The translations under genes were made by a program, and so were the position numbers. DNA of 22,577 bases from a virus: IMG/VR virus record IMGVR_UViG_3300022910_000021, positions 1-22,577 of that record; one strand, given 5' to 3'. Below are positions 2,521 through 16,202 of this stretch, in pieces (positions within the stretch are counted from its first letter, which is position 1; each line of letters opens with the position of its first letter). The notes beneath the pieces are model-generated. The model worked only from the letters and a program-made list of their open reading frames with translations, made no database searches and was not told where the DNA came from.

Positions 2521-2610
2521 GGTAGCGTATGGTACAGTTCTACTGCAACGAAAGCTTGACGCTCAGCTCCCTACGAACCGGGTCGCTACCGGCTAGCGGA
2601 GCAGCGTCAA
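2521..2610 (+). ncRNA. Structured RNA, possible degenerate tRNA with a competing hairpin
   Basis: Two alternative folds are visible. First, 2521-2527 (GGTAGCG) pairs perfectly with 2584-2590 (CGCTACC) at the spacing of a tRNA acceptor stem, followed by TA as at tRNA positions 8-9, and a TACGAAC stretch sits where a T-loop would be. The T-stem and D arm are poor. Second, TTGACGC (2556-2562) pairs with GCGTCAA (2604-2610), enclosing GCTCC/GGAGC and an inner CCGG/CCGG hairpin, a long near-continuous stem. The folds exclude each other. It could be a tRNA relic, a small regulatory RNA or a processing signal. No protein gene is seen here. Confidence 0.3.
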
Positions 2611-2662
2611 CGGGTGGTAAGCTCAAGCCGTAGCCAATGGGCAAGCGGTATGAGAGCCACTC

Positions 2663-2733
2663 AGGGTGGTAGCTCAATGGTAGAGCTTGGTCCGAGAAGG
2701 ACCAGGATCCGGGTTCGAGCCCCGGCCACCCAC
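2663..2733 (+). tRNA. tRNA-like gene with closed 5-base anticodon loop
   Basis: Acceptor GGTGG-type stem 2663-2669/2726-2732 (only the 1:72 A-A pair fails), TA at 8-9, D stem GCTC/GAGC (2672-2675/2683-2686) with GG in the loop, anticodon stem TGGTC/GACCA (2688-2692/2700-2704), T stem CCGGG/CCCGG and T-loop TTCGAGC (2714-2720). All are well-formed. The anticodon loop 2693-2699 is CGAGAAG: position 33 is G, not the near-universal U, and C32 can pair with G38 to leave a GAGAA pentaloop. Read at 34-36 the anticodon would be AGA, but there is no class II variable arm for Ser. No CCA is encoded. Decoding ability is doubtful. Confidence 0.6.
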
Positions 2734-2779
2734 GGGGAGAGAGGAACGGGGTCAGTACCCGAGCCAGGCGGCTTCGGCC

Positions 2780-2871
2780 ATGCGGCGCTTGGTGTAATGG
2801 TTAGCATACTCTCCCGTGGTTCAGGTTAGTCCGTCCCGCTTGCGACGGACCAGGGCAGCAACCTGGCGGCG
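2780..2871 (+). ncRNA. Hairpin-rich RNA with tRNA 5'-half-like start
   Basis: GGTGTAATGGTTAGCAT at 2791-2807 looks like a tRNA D arm, and the sequence before it could be an acceptor strand. No matching anticodon 3' strand or TTCRA T-loop follows. Instead there is a perfect 7-bp hairpin (GTCCGTC 2829-2835 / GACGGAC 2844-2850, 8-base loop), then CCAGG/CCTGG (2850-2854/2862-2866) with a 7-base loop GCAGCAA at T-arm spacing. CAGGTT (2822-2827) can also pair with AACCTG (2860-2865) around the hairpin. It may be a rearranged class II tRNA, a broken tRNA or an unrelated small RNA. Confidence 0.3.
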
Positions 2872-2894
2872 TGGTAGCCGTCGAATAGCTGGTA

Positions 2895-2970
2895 GCTTCG
2901 TTAGCTCAGTGGAGAGAGCGCTGGCGGTCTAAACCCTCAGAGGCGCCAGGTTCGATTCCTGGACGGAGCA
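2895..2970 (+). tRNA. tRNA-like gene with enlarged 10-base anticodon loop
   Basis: Acceptor GCTTCGT 2895-2901 pairs with ACGGAGC 2963-2969 (one G-U), TA at 8-9, D stem GCTC/GAGC (2904-2907/2916-2919) with GG in the loop, T stem CCAGG/CCTGG around TTCGATT (2951-2957), discriminator A2970. Between them the anticodon arm is three bases too long: CTGGC 2921-2925 and CTCAG 2936-2940 frame a 10-base segment GGTCTAAACC, which can itself close as GGT/ACC with a CTAA tetraloop. If a 7-base loop GTCTAAA forms, the anticodon would read CTA (amber), but the supporting stem would then be poor. No CCA encoded. Confidence 0.6.
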
Positions 2971-3039
2971 CGGAAGCCCAGATCGAGTGTGATGAACTCG
3001 GGAGTAAGGGGTTTCTGGCGAAGGCTCATCACCTTCGCC

Positions 3040-3114
3040 GCTACTGTAGCTCAGCCCGGTAGAGCGCCCGACGTGGAGTCGGGAGGATCGTGGGTTCAAA
3101 TCCCACCAGTAGCA
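3040..3114 (+). tRNA. tRNA-like gene with closed 5-base anticodon loop (TGG if read)
   Basis: The best-formed tRNA here: acceptor GCTACTG 3040-3046/CAGTAGC 3107-3113 (7/7), TA, D stem GCTC/GAGC with CCGG in the loop, anticodon stem CCCGA/TCGGG (3067-3071/3079-3083), T stem GTGGG/CCCAC with TTCAAAT loop (3095-3101), discriminator A3114, no CCA. The anticodon loop 3072-3078 is CGTGGAG. Positions 34-36 read TGG (Pro), but position 33 is G instead of U, and C32-G38 can pair, giving a GTGGA pentaloop. Everything except the loop looks functional. The plus-strand frame through it translates as a typical spurious tRNA peptide. Confidence 0.7.
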
Positions 3115-3121
3115 CTGCGGT

Positions 3122-3215
3122 CGAGCGTCCGTTATCGCTCAGGATGGCAACCTCTCTTGGTGCACCAAGGGGAATCAGCCGGTAGGCCGGAGGGGTTCAA
3201 GGCCCCCGTGCTCCT
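3122..3215 (+). ncRNA. Class II tRNA-like RNA with sealed anticodon arm
   Basis: A T-arm is clear: AGGGG 3191-3195, loop TTCAAGG 3196-3202, CCCCC 3203-3207, preceded by a variable-arm hairpin CCGG/CCGG (3179-3182/3187-3190). GAGCGT (3123-3128) can pair with GTGCTC (3208-3213) as a 6-bp acceptor with two wobbles. In the anticodon-arm position is an 8-bp hairpin TCTCTTGG 3153-3160 / CCAAGGGG 3165-3172 capped only by TGCA, so no 7-base loop is available. The D arm is long and irregular, and GAGCG/CGCTC (3123-3127/3136-3140) is a competing hairpin. A degenerate Ser/Leu-type tRNA or tRNA mimic is possible. Confidence 0.35.
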
Positions 3216-3224
3216 CGGAGTATT

Positions 3225-3245
3225 GGCGTGGTTCGAGGCCGCGCC
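3225..3245 (+). other. T-arm-like hairpin (7 bp, TTCGAGG loop)
   Basis: GGCGTGG 3225-3231 pairs with CCGCGCC 3239-3245 (one G-U) around TTCGAGG, a typical T-loop sequence. No acceptor or anticodon arm fits around it. Just beyond, CGCAGT (3252-3257) can pair with ACTGCG at 3114-3119, which would enclose the whole 3114-3257 stretch. It looks like a solitary T-arm remnant or a domain of a larger RNA. Confidence 0.35.
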
Positions 3246-3322
3246 CGGGTACGCAGTTCGCTACATCTGAAAAGGAGAGTCCCCCTCCTGCTCAACTGAG
3301 TAAGATGCAAGCTGAACGCCAA

Positions 3323-3358
3323 AAAGCCCCGGCCTCCCATTAGGGAGGCCGGGGCTTT
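3323..3358. terminator. Strong symmetric (bidirectional) intrinsic terminator
   Basis: A perfect 16-bp inverted repeat, AAAGCCCCGGCCTCCC (3323-3338) and its complement (3343-3358), around an ATTA loop. On the plus strand the stem ends in TTT after the RNA cluster; on the minus strand the run of five A at 3321-3325 gives a U-tract. It lies where the plus-strand micro-gene/RNA cluster meets the end of the long minus-strand late operon, so it can stop transcription from both sides. The stretch 3246-3322 holds only this and a weak AGGAG/CTCCT hairpin. Confidence 0.92.
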
Positions 3359-3373
3359 GGGTAGTGCTAGGTA

Positions 3374-12959: not shown

Positions 12960-13937
12960 TTACGGCGTACCTGTCTGCAACGTCGGCACGGTGGAGCCGG
13001 AAAGGATCTGGACCAGGGACTCGTTGCGGTACAGAGCCCAGCCCAGGATGCCGTACCAGCCAACGGTGCGGAACCGCTGGAGCTTGTCGGTCACGGGACC
13101 AAGAACCGAGTTCGGCTCCTCGGTGACGACCTCGGCCAGGGCTTCACGGCCCAGGATGAAGGTCCGGTAGACCTTCGCCGAAGACGCGCCGTCAAGCGCG
13201 GTACGGGTACGGGTGTTCGTGACGAACCGCACACCCTCGAACTCGCCGAACTCACCAGTCCAGATCTTGGACTGGTCGGTGCCGTACTCGTTCGGGACAC
13301 GCCACGAGCCGGAGCCCGTCTCTTCCCGCAGGTCGTGCAGGACGTGCGGGTGGATACCACCCGCATAGAACCCGCCACCGAACTCCGGGACCTTGTTCGC
13401 GTTCAGCCAGGTGTTGGCCTTGCGAACGTCGCTCGCGCGGATGGTGTCGCCAGCCAGGATCTGGTTGGTCGCGGAACGGCTCTGAGCCCGGAGGATCTGA
13501 GTACCGGTGACCAGGTAGTCCTGGACCAGCTCGTCGAGCACGTCCGCCTGGTGCGCACCAACGGTGCGAGCGGCGACCATGTCGACGTCGGCGAAGCTGA
13601 AGTACCGCAGCTTCTTGGTGCTGGTGATCGCAGCACCGTACTCGTTGACGGTCAGGTCGACCGTCAGGGTCGGGGGCAGCTTCTGGCTGTCCACGTCCAT
13701 TTCCTCGTTCAGCGGCGTCTTGGCAGCGGTGACAGACGCGCTGTCGAAGAACTGCTGCTTCTGCATCTGAATGGTCTGCCCAGGCATCACCAGGTGACCC
13801 GGGGACTTGTCGGCAGCCCAAGCGCGGTACATCGGGTTTTCGCGGTAGACCATGTCGATAGCAAGGTCGTACGCGGTCTTGATGGTATTGTCACCAATAC
13901 CAGGCGTGGTAAGAATTGAGGTGTACTGGTTAGCCAC
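12960..13937 (-). CDS. Major capsid protein, N4-gp56 family, 325 aa
   Basis: Length and sequence match an HK97-fold major capsid protein of the N4-gp56 type: N-terminal arm (MANQYTSILTTPGIGDNT), E-loop region with PGQTIQMQKQQFF and NEEMDVDSQKL, a spine helix ADVLDELVQDYLVTGTQI, and P-domain/A-loop strands ending YGILGWALYRNESLVQI. It forms the icosahedral shell. The scaffold gene lies immediately upstream, as is standard. Start GTG 13937 with only a weak AGG-type ribosome site, unexpected for so abundant a protein; translation may be helped by coupling or mRNA structure. Confidence 0.92.
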   Translation of the reverse strand: MANQYTSILTTPGIGDNTIKTAYDLAIDMVYRENPMYRAWAADKSPGHLVMPGQTIQMQKQQFFDSASVTAAKTPLNEEMDVDSQKLPPTLTVDLTVNEYGAAITSTKKLRYFSFADVDMVAARTVGAHQADVLDELVQDYLVTGTQILRAQSRSATNQILAGDTIRASDVRKANTWLNANKVPEFGGGFYAGGIHPHVLHDLREETGSGSWRVPNEYGTDQSKIWTGEFGEFEGVRFVTNTRTRTALDGASSAKVYRTFILGREALAEVVTEEPNSVLGPVTDKLQRFRTVGWYGILGWALYRNESLVQILSGSTVPTLQTGTP

Positions 13938-14636: not shown

Positions 14637-14707
14637 TGAGCGTGGCAGGAATCGAACCTGCACCCTCCCCTTATTGTGGGGAGTTCTGCCTTAGATGTGC
14701 ACGCACC
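14637..14707 (-). tRNA. tRNA-like gene with C33 anticodon loop (AAT if read)
   Basis: On the minus strand: acceptor GTGCGTG (14706-14700) with CACGCTC (14644-14638), one T-T mismatch; T stem GCAGG/CCTGC with loop TTCGATT (14656-14650); discriminator A at 14637; anticodon stem TCCCC/GGGGA (14682-14678/14670-14666). The anticodon loop 14677-14671 is ACAATAA, so position 33 is C rather than U, and 34-36 would be AAT. The D arm is short (TCT/AGA, 5-base loop AAGGC). It lies between the HNH gene and the scaffold gene and is co-oriented with the late operon. Aminoacylation and decoding are uncertain. Confidence 0.55.
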
Positions 14708-14712
14708 ATTGT

Positions 14713-14741
14713 TTGCCTTCTCGTCCCAGGCGTGATAGGGT
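14713..14741 (+). promoter_or_regulatory. Possible promoter for the HNH gene, near-leaderless
   Basis: TTGCCT at 14713-14718 and TAGGGT at 14736-14741 are separated by exactly 17 bases, resembling actinobacterial -35 and TANNNT -10 elements. Transcription would begin about 7 bases later, at or next to ATG 14749, which would make the mRNA almost leaderless, a known mode in actinobacteria. This agrees with the lack of a good ribosome site before the gene. The gene points against the operon around it, so it needs its own promoter. Confidence 0.35.
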
Positions 14742-14748
14742 TCGACTC

Positions 14749-15102
14749 ATGCCATACAAGAACAAGGACGATCTGAGGAAGTTTCAGCGAGAGTGGAAGG
14801 CGGCACGCCGTCAGGCGTGGATTGACAGCCAAGGCGCGAAGTGTATTGACTGCAACTCGACCGAGAGGCTTGAGGTGGATCATGTTGACCCAAGTCAGAA
14901 ACTTATGCGGCCCAGTCTTATTTGGTCGCTGGCCGAAGCCAATCCGAAAAGGATCGCCGAACTGGCCAAATGCGTCTTGCGCTGCCATGATTGCCACCAA
15001 GTAAAAACCAAGCGGCAGCGGGCCGGGCGGGAGTCGAACTCGCCTGTCACCATGCGGCCCTGGCTTCTCAAAGAAGCCGAAGTACTAGTACTACAACAAT
15101 AA
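14749..15102 (+). CDS. HNH endonuclease family protein, 117 aa
   Basis: ATG 14749 begins a basic helix (MPYKNKDDLRKFQREWKAAR), then Cys32-x2-Cys35 (KCIDCNS), LEVDHVDP with the catalytic His45, and CVLRCHDCHQVKT with Cys79, Cys82 and His83. This is the zinc-braced beta-beta-alpha HNH fold of free-standing phage nucleases. It is the only plus-strand protein gene in the long minus-strand region, as expected for a selfish homing nuclease, though HNH proteins can also aid DNA packaging. Residues 92-104 (GRESNSPVTMRP) are the antisense of a truncated tRNA, so the C-terminal tail may be acquired. The gene's end overlaps a minus-strand micro-gene. Confidence 0.85.
   Translation: MPYKNKDDLRKFQREWKAARRQAWIDSQGAKCIDCNSTERLEVDHVDPSQKLMRPSLIWSLAEANPKRIAELAKCVLRCHDCHQVKTKRQRAGRESNSPVTMRPWLLKEAEVLVLQQ
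15020..15060 (-). ncRNA. Truncated tRNA minihelix (acceptor plus T arm only)
   Basis: On the minus strand GGGCCG (15060-15055) pairs with CGGCCC (15025-15020), and GCGAG (15043-15039) with CCCGC (15031-15027; one A-C mismatch) around TTCGACT, a proper T-loop. Only 10 bases link the acceptor and T arm, so D and anticodon arms are absent. It lies antisense to the HNH 3' end and just after the 20-residue membrane ORF. It could be a tRNA relic or a minihelix substrate for RNase P or CCA-adding enzyme. Confidence 0.4.
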
Positions 15103-15132: not shown

Positions 15133-15237
15133 TCAGAATCCAATCGGCAACTGCGTGATTACTTCGTTCCAAACACCTACGAGCAAGGCGGCCAGGAAAA
15201 TACCAAGCGCCACACTAAGAATGGACCAGCCATCCAT
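15133..15237 (-). CDS. 34-residue single-pass membrane micro-protein
   Basis: ATG 15237 shares one base with the TAA of the 321-residue gene (TAATG junction), indicating coupled translation. The peptide starts MDGWS, has one membrane span (ILSVALGIFLAALLVGVW) and ends NEVITQLPIGF. With the 20-residue ORF after it, it makes a pair of tiny membrane proteins between virion-protein genes and the scaffold. Such small proteins can be pinholins, ejection-channel parts or superinfection-exclusion peptides; none of these can be chosen from sequence. Confidence 0.6.
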   Translation of the reverse strand: MDGWSILSVALGIFLAALLVGVWNEVITQLPIGF

Positions 15238-16202
15238 TAGATTGACCCTTCACTAGACTTGTTGAGGGACGTCTTGCTCTGACCAGACCCGCCACTGAAG
15301 GTGGCGCGTTCCTGCGAGGCAAGCTTCTTGCGCTTGCCCGCAGCCTGGCCGTCACCCAGGAAGGCTTCACTGACCAGGTCGGCCTGCGTCACATTGTCAC
15401 CGCCATAGATCTGGGACAGCTTGTCGGTGGTCTGCTGCTCTTGGCCGATGAACCCCAGACCCTGCTGGATGTCGTTCAGGCTTGCGCCCGTACGCCCGAT
15501 GGTCTCGGCGTTCGCCTGGTTCAGGGAGAAGCCCTGCTGGGATGCCGTAGCGGCAGCTTCCGCTGCCTTGATGCGCTGCTCGATCAAAGGCTGGGCCTTC
15601 TTCGGATCGAGCGCGTAAGCGATCATGTCGCCAGTGTTGTACCACTGGCCGAAGAAATCCTTGGTCGAAGCAGGAGCCTTGTTGATGGCTTCGGCTACGG
15701 TGTCGACCCGGGACTTGACCTCGGTCGGACTGACGTCCATGGCGAGGAAGTTCTCGAAGTCCTTGGTCGAGTCGTAGAAGCCGATGGGCAGCCCGGCGGA
15801 CTGCATCACCTGGCGGTACGCTCGCTCGGTAGCGATGTACTCGGCTGGAGAAAGGACGGGGAGTCCGGCCTTCAGGCGCTTGTCGTTGGCCGAGAACCTT
15901 TCCTTGTACTCCTTGGTTTCCTTCAGCTTGATAGCGATGACGTCGGCTCCGAAGCCGTCCTGGATCATCTTGACGATCTGAGGAGCGAGAGAACCAAGAC
16001 CGTACGAATCGAAGAGGTCGCCGATGGCGACGGCTGCGTCACGGTCTGAACCGTAGAGCGCACCGTAAGGATCGTTCTTCTTCGCCCTAGCGGCATCAAG
16101 GGCCGCCTTGGCGGCGGCCGACCCCTGATAACCCTTCTTCTTGACTGCTCCTGCGAGACTACGCCTGGCCGCATTGGGGAGCAGGTTGTCCTTGGCGGCC
16201 AT
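15237..16202 (-). CDS. Helical virion/ejection-type protein, 321 aa
   Basis: ATG 16202 overlaps the upstream stop by one base. The protein is mostly helical, soluble and Ala/Lys/Gln-rich: DLFDSYGLGSLAPQIVKMIQ (about 60-80) and LKETKEYKERFSANDKRL (about 92-110) parallel the LKNTSWYKKN region of its 287-residue neighbour, suggesting paralogy. Residues 115-230 are amphipathic helices; the C-terminus is basic and Ser/Gly-rich (GKRKKLASQERATFSGG). There is no enzymatic motif. It most resembles internal virion proteins that exit with the DNA in podovirus-like phages, but this is inferred from context. Confidence 0.65.
   Translation of the reverse strand: MAAKDNLLPNAARRSLAGAVKKKGYQGSAAAKAALDAARAKKNDPYGALYGSDRDAAVAIGDLFDSYGLGSLAPQIVKMIQDGFGADVIAIKLKETKEYKERFSANDKRLKAGLPVLSPAEYIATERAYRQVMQSAGLPIGFYDSTKDFENFLAMDVSPTEVKSRVDTVAEAINKAPASTKDFFGQWYNTGDMIAYALDPKKAQPLIEQRIKAAEAAATASQQGFSLNQANAETIGRTGASLNDIQQGLGFIGQEQQTTDKLSQIYGGDNVTQADLVSEAFLGDGQAAGKRKKLASQERATFSGGSGQSKTSLNKSSEGSI

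Follow-up and report, generated by a model that had tools for sequence, protein, structure and literature searches.

An anticodon loop that lacks U33 and can be closed by a C32-G38 pair recurs among viral tRNAs

What phages gain from carrying tRNAs is a question of long standing. We studied a 22,577-base IMG/VR record of a bacterial virus known only from environmental DNA, at its full length (the window). A preliminary description had claimed that four tRNA-like RNAs in the window, three on the plus strand (tRNA1 to tRNA3) and one on the minus strand (tRNA4), all lack U33 in a 7-base anticodon loop. What, then, are these RNAs? We called tRNAs with ARAGORN and with Infernal (Rfam RF00005, gathering score 29 bits) and folded them with RNAfold against 200 shuffles. 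The three plus-strand RNAs pass the Rfam cut-off of 29 bits and tRNA4 falls below it (Table 1). Both callers agree on the missing U33 (G33 in tRNA1 and tRNA3, no sound loop in tRNA2 and C33 in tRNA4); none of the four has the U33 and 7-base anticodon loop of an ordinary elongator. Nor did ARAGORN, Infernal or RNAfold return a U33 loop in another register, which had been named as one result that would speak against the claim.

Table 1. Positions of the tRNA-like RNAs and of the genes used to place them in the window.
Feature	Position	Strand	Remarks
tRNA1	2663..2733	+	43.1 bits with RF00005; intact cloverleaf; no encoded CCA
tRNA1 anticodon loop CGAGAAG	2693-2699	+	G33; C32-G38 pair possible
tRNA2	2895..2971	+	47.9 bits with RF00005; acceptor, D and T arms kept
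tRNA3	3040..3115	+	59.5 bits with RF00005; intact cloverleaf; no encoded CCA
tRNA3 anticodon arm CCCGA - CGUGGAG - UCGGG	3067..3083	+	5/5 stem pairs
tRNA3 anticodon loop CGUGGAG	3072-3078	+	G33; C32-G38 closable, with GUGGA at the tip
Major capsid protein	12960..13937	-	basis for placing the phage
tRNA4	14637..14706	-	22.3 bits with RF00005, below the gathering score; degraded
tRNA4 anticodon loop ACAAUAA	14671-14677	-	C33
HNH endonuclease gene	14695-15102	+	opposite strand, adjoins tRNA4; its slot holds the tRNA array in relatives

The window capsid protein shares about 39-40% identity with those of Streptomyces Beephvirinae phages and 52% with that of another IMG/VR record (G044, 47 kb); going by these relatives, the host would be Streptomyces or another actinomycete. 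Among named phages, we found no direct DNA relatives of the window. From 22.4 kb down to 3.4 kb, the minus strand carries genes with structural or lysis matches, and the plus-strand tRNA cluster lies directly past their end.

The four RNAs had been described as a single group in which T-loops and acceptor stems are kept throughout, and D arms in the three plus-strand members. The arms largely stand, as acceptor stems have 6-7 of 7 pairs in all four, T stems are kept, and the D arm is present in the plus-strand RNAs and lost in tRNA4. The single group does not stand, since it mixes two intact RNAs (tRNA1 and tRNA3) with two damaged ones (tRNA2 and tRNA4). Specifically, no stem is lost in tRNA1 or tRNA3; the acceptor stem of tRNA1 has a single mismatch (6/7 pairs; A-A at 1-72), and that of tRNA3 has 7/7 pairs and ends in G1-C72 with A73. 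Both fold better than 200/200 shuffles (z -3.3 and -3.5, respectively), and the best fold of each is a cloverleaf with a 6-pair anticodon stem and a 5-base loop. We refer to loops that can be closed in this way as capped. A likeness of the tRNA1 hairpin to the sarcin-ricin loop of 23S rRNA was judged to be chance.

The other two RNAs look different. The anticodon arm of tRNA2 (2921-2940) is irregular, reading CUGGC GGUCUAAACC CUCAG, with either a 10-base loop or a mispaired stem; there is no 7-base loop on a sound 5-pair stem. ARAGORN places the loop UCUAAAC (C33) on a mispaired stem, and a reading with U33 and CUA would likewise require a bulged or mispaired one. The acceptor stem has 7/7 pairs, one of them G-U, and the fold that RNAfold ranks best is something other than a cloverleaf (z -2.4). 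tRNA4 has lost a proper D arm and keeps its acceptor (6/7 pairs), anticodon and T stems (z -2.0). Most simply, tRNA2 and tRNA4 are remnants, for which ordinary decay is enough.

The position of tRNA4 can be compared with the tRNAs of relatives. In Immanuel3 and FlowerPower, the nearest named relatives found among the Streptomyces Beephvirinae, arrays of 22 and 21 tRNAs, respectively, lie upstream of the capsid gene and after a gene homologous to window 15237-16202, with the flanking window proteins in the same order on both sides. tRNA4 lies in the equivalent slot, flanked by the capsid gene and by window 15237-16202, the homologue of Immanuel3 gene 13. As it occupies the array-matching place, beside the HNH endonuclease gene, we read it as a remnant of that array. 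Canonical loops in related phages had been named as another result that would count against the claim. Such loops do occur, in 43/43 array tRNAs of the two Beephvirinae and in 2/2 tRNAs (Met and Trp) of G044, the nearest relative, but they occur at the 14.6-kb slot just upstream of the capsid gene, whereas at the 2.6-3.1-kb slot there is no tRNA in Immanuel3, FlowerPower or G044. The G044 contig starts at its array slot, where further tRNAs may be missing; after the homologue of the gene bordering the window's plus-strand cluster, it has no tRNA. The plus-strand cluster has no ortholog in these comparable relatives. A more distant record (G045, capsid 35%) carries Met and Leu tRNAs, both with U33, located elsewhere, and no tRNA match at E 0.01 came from 43 IMG/VR records, many of them fragments, in which the 639-aa protein has a relative. 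Among named-phage tRNAs most like tRNA3, the matched gene has U33 in 9/9 (the best 9 of 893 matching records).

The loop of tRNA3 recurs elsewhere. CGUGGAG is found in at least 23 distinct viral tRNAs beyond the window, on 21 different stems (5/5 pairs in 18 and 4/5 in 5), although some of these come in related pairs and the independent sources number about 20 or fewer. Three features define the capped-loop class, CGUGGAG, a paired anticodon stem and a tRNA body, and tRNA3 has all of them; with one CGCGGAG and one GGUGGAC tRNA, the window and the 23 viral tRNAs make a set of 26 distinct sequences. tRNA1 has C32, G33, A37 and G38 in common with this CG-UGG-AG class and differs in the triplet. 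Some candidates were dropped: L258 (weak acceptor, no ARAGORN call), L188 (no tRNA by ARAGORN) and, for CGAGAAG, L402/L403 (weak acceptor).

A wide scan was made with CGTGGAG plus the T loop, so that this loop's own share is not measurable from it; among the matches listed (118 loci, 661 tRNAs), there were 23 CGUGGAG and 606 U33 tRNAs, along with 21 C33, 2 A33, 1 G33 tRNA with a different loop and 8 tRNAs with 6- or 8-base loops. The share can be measured through an open-triplet search alone (D stem AGCTC/GAGC, GGTTC, loop CGNNNAG), which is correct on the window's own tRNAs and covers one D-stem type and few independent lineages. In viral contigs, this pattern gave 34 stretches with 35 matches, 19 of them sound (at least 4/5 anticodon, 4/5 T and 5/7 acceptor pairs). 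CGUGGAG accounts for 6 of the 19 (L192, L195, L201, L208, L215 and L217, of which L201 and L217 are one lineage, their stretches being 99.9% alike), and the remainder carry 10 other loops. A pattern that fixed only GTGGA at positions 33-37 matched 11 viral contigs. ARAGORN calls no tRNA at three of these matches; the others comprise six CGUGGAG tRNAs, a GGUGGAC tRNA (L220) and a tRNA whose register differs (L221).

Cellular genomes gave a different picture. In the bacterial/archaeal genome set, exact CGUGGAG in the searched form had 0 matches, and the open triplet gave 78 stretches with 4 sound tRNAs, 0 of them with UGG. As a control, the U33 form CTNNNAA was found in 100/100 Actinomycetota genomes (4-17 matches each), and the capped form in 1/396, Streptomyces cellulosae, where the match is no sound tRNA. 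Among viruses, CGUGGAG was absent from 40- and 45-kb stretches of huge-phage records near L334, and the capped tRNA was absent from four Azeevirinae relatives of L192, which indicates that it is easily gained or lost. Judged from these sequences, the capped CGUGGAG loop looks like a recurrent viral feature that is kept, and not like random damage. The earlier argument against random decay thus holds for tRNA3, whose seven bases recur on different paired stems. It is weaker for tRNA1, given the few other CGAGAAG tRNAs (among the matches listed in a wide scan, with 119 loci and 346 tRNAs, 4 ARAGORN tRNAs, two of them identical and one with an unpaired stem), and it falls away for tRNA2 and tRNA4, where decay suffices. 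Among the matches listed in our literature search, we found neither the CGUGGAG loop described nor phage tRNAs reported to have lost U33; one paper, in the part available, names U33 for tRNA-Pyl only and does not contain the word phage (PMC7609411).

One carrier is a cultured phage, Arthrobacter phage Molivia (L282), in which the capped RNA is annotated as tRNA-Pro(tgg). At the same place, upstream of tRNA-Tyr, Anansi and Molivia's relative Amigo have a tRNA annotated 'Undet', and Yeezus has the same sequence, unannotated. The Molivia loop is CGUGGAG on the stem ACCCU/AGGGU, and the Amigo loop is the 8-base CGUUGGAG on CCGGG/UCCGG; thus, the stem is fully changed and the CG-(U)UGG-AG frame is kept. 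Eight-base loops in the same frame also occur in L219 (CGCAAUAG) and L077 (CGUCUGAG). The Rfam tRNA model did not report the Amigo RNA at E 0.5, and such RNAs can therefore escape detection. L219, a 340-kb IMG/VR phage, carries in a single cluster two CGUUGAG tRNAs and the one with the 8-base loop.

If the arms of the class are real stems, their two sides should change together. The covariation set comprised 24 arms (the 26 distinct tRNAs after removal of two repeats, with CGCGGAG and GGUGGAC included). Across these, 96.5% of 144 pair cells are standard, compared to 53.4% in shuffles, and the covariation value of 1.098 (0.206 in shuffles) was reached by 0/500 shuffles. Two-sided changes number 63 cells vs 19.2 in shuffles, and all six pairs, 32-38 among them, show one; when the partner is slid by 1-3 columns, the paired share falls to 52.1% or less. 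Covariation of 27-31 with 39-43 is expected in any unrelated set of tRNAs, and establishes the arms as genuine stems while saying nothing about their use. At 32-38, the pair is C-G in 23/24 and G-C in one (L220), and the covariation evidence for the closing pair comes from this one swap. G33, G35, G36 and A37 are invariant in the class; as the search patterns themselves required these bases, their constancy is no independent evidence. GNRNA pentaloop hairpins, such as lambda boxB, have the motif G-N-R-N-A. By sequence, GUGGA and GAGAA, closed by C-G, fit this motif, although the window loops differ from those hairpins in sitting inside a tRNA and are not known to have a protein partner. From the known geometry of such loops, G33 and A37 would form a couple.

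How would such a loop behave? C32 would pair with G38, and G33 and A37 would couple beneath bases 34-36 (UGG in tRNA3). With U33 gone and 32-38 closed, the usual U-turn would be blocked and the RNA would be a poor decoder, while intact acceptor and T arms would allow trimming and CCA addition as in any tRNA. The result may be an RNA kept in tRNA shape that host anticodon-loop enzymes are unable to cut, or by which they are occupied, in a conflict between phage and host. The reading that we place first, and hold tentatively, is that tRNA3 is, and tRNA1 probably is, of a recurrent capped kind of phage tRNA that decodes poorly and serves as a decoy or nuclease-proof RNA, tRNA2 and tRNA4 being remnants. 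Our best guess at a role is thus one that is non-decoding and related to defence; the mimic or decoy first proposed for all four RNAs would be compatible with the data.

Escape from anticodon nucleases through loop changes has been proposed for phage tRNAs (van den Berg et al., 2023; PMC10264068, section 4). Those RNAs resemble the ones described here in being phage genes with changed anticodon loops that are otherwise tRNA-like. They differ in that the changes lie at or near nuclease sites, and that section mentions neither U33 loss, nor a closed 32-38 pair, nor a loop shared across different acceptor ends. Capped loops go beyond that proposal in that they have lost U33 and are closable. The UGG triplet is constant in the CGUGGAG class, although a pure decoy would have no need of a fixed triplet. 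A wider idea, which we consider less likely than the first, is that these are a family of non-decoding tRNA-like RNAs across phages, with many bodies, in which the UGG tip might bind a fixed host target (an enzyme, or CCA ends by pairing), acting against tRNA-based defence or steering translation.

The constant UGG could also mean that the capped RNAs are a proline isoacceptor, its loop altered against host anticodon nucleases and CCA still decoded, an explanation that we find unlikely. It can call on the nuclease-escape proposal, which was itself built upon anticodon-loop changes in phages (PMC10264068), and cluster AQ phages, Amigo among them, are described as having a polynucleotide kinase together with an RNA ligase (PMC5513430), a pair of enzymes that suggests that tRNAs are damaged in that host. 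Bacterial-type tRNA-Pro is marked by an acceptor end of C1-G72 with A73. Molivia's capped tRNA and the Amigo form both have this end, and tRNA3, with G1-C72 and A73, does not. Ordinary phage tRNA-Pro(UGG), of which the viral loci examined held 74 distinct U33 examples, share UGG at 34-36 with the class but have U33, and C1-G72-A73 in 66/73 scored. Only 6/23 distinct CGUGGAG tRNAs have that end, Molivia's included (Fisher p 6.5e-9, with sequences counted without correction for relatedness), and it is missing in the other 17, so that the capped RNAs are not simply spare proline tRNAs. The share nonetheless exceeds the background of 136/1528 among all U33 tRNAs. The nearest bodies of CGUGGAG tRNAs are of many kinds, among them Pro, Phe, Trp, Gln, Ala and Glu, with low similarity in most cases, and a loop common to many bodies argues against one proline isoacceptor line. 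Moreover, 12 of 28 loop stretches (window included, Molivia counted twice) also carry an ordinary tRNA-Pro(UGG). Finally, U33 is lost and 32-38 is closable in these RNAs, and U33 loss together with a closed 32-38 pair impairs decoding. A loop that is shared across phages, yet independent of amino-acid identity, is poorly explained by codon supply.

We also think it improbable that all four RNAs are what decay has so far left of an ancestral tRNA array, with the common features of tRNA1 and tRNA3 a coincidence. The degraded tRNA4 in the ancestral array slot, the broken anticodon arm of tRNA2 and the tRNA-like 5' half between tRNA1 and tRNA2 would all suit such a history, but tRNA1 and tRNA3 have kept their four stems apart from the one acceptor mismatch, and the tRNA3 loop recurs upon different stems in other viral sequences. 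A special decoder, such as a frameshifting tRNA, is very unlikely: the four bases (UUGG) between G and A in Amigo and the 8-base loops of L219 and L077 would suit it, but all 23 CGUGGAG members have 7-base loops. It is just as hard to credit that the tRNA shapes do no more than mark where RNase P processes a long transcript, for although RNase P recognizes acceptor and T arms, which all four RNAs retain, this leaves one loop sequence across different phages unexplained. The capped tRNAs offer a small, testable set of RNAs in which to look for roles outside decoding, with a cultured member in Molivia.

Is the loss of U33 itself unusual? In a scan of loci selected for containing a non-U33 tRNA, the matches listed (120 loci, 784 tRNAs) held 91 C33, 18 G33 and 10 A33 tRNAs and 0 CGUGGAG. 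Among 474 other tRNAs in the first 80 of these loci, 437 have U33, 25 C33, 2 G33 and 2 A33, and 8 have 6- or 8-base loops. C33 is the commonest departure, and U33 loss alone is therefore not unique to the window phage. C32-G38 together with U33 is rare (12/1574 distinct tRNAs), and in the non-U33 loci C32-G38 occurs in 1/15 distinct G33 tRNAs; thus, the capped form is not the usual G33 form. We also compared RNA ligases in 24 carriers (with L258 and L220 in, and L187, L253, L295, L298, L328 and L545 out) and 26 other tRNA-rich viral records, hand-picked for size range from 113 such loci. A T4 Rnl1-type RNA ligase is present in 10/24 carriers vs 8/26 of the others, and RtcB in 1/24 vs 3/26; neither is clearly linked with the capped loop.

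Several smaller observations accompany these results. In a 6-kb stretch of L126, a 172-kb IMG/VR phage whose record has an RtcB ligase, 8/30 ARAGORN tRNAs are non-U33, nearly all C33. In a stretch of L128, a 175-kb IMG/VR phage, 6/7 ARAGORN tRNAs have non-U33, 6-base or 8-base loops; one of its loops is UCUAAACC, a string found also in the window tRNA2 arm. A capped loop of the form CGACCAG occurs in L460 and L514 (Hyphomicrobiales, Aestuariivirgaceae MAGs) and in the viral L314. Within the window, at 2782-2816 (plus strand), a tRNA-like 5' half can be seen by eye, with the D arm TGTAATGGTTAGCA running into CTCTCCCGTGG, after which the tRNA likeness ends; it is possibly a broken relative carrying the same loop, and the stretch 2760-2892 folds no better than shuffles (z -0.3). 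A simple terminator scan listed none at 3319-3360, where the tRNA cluster and the structural genes converge and a strong hairpin with adjoining A and T runs looks like a two-way terminator.
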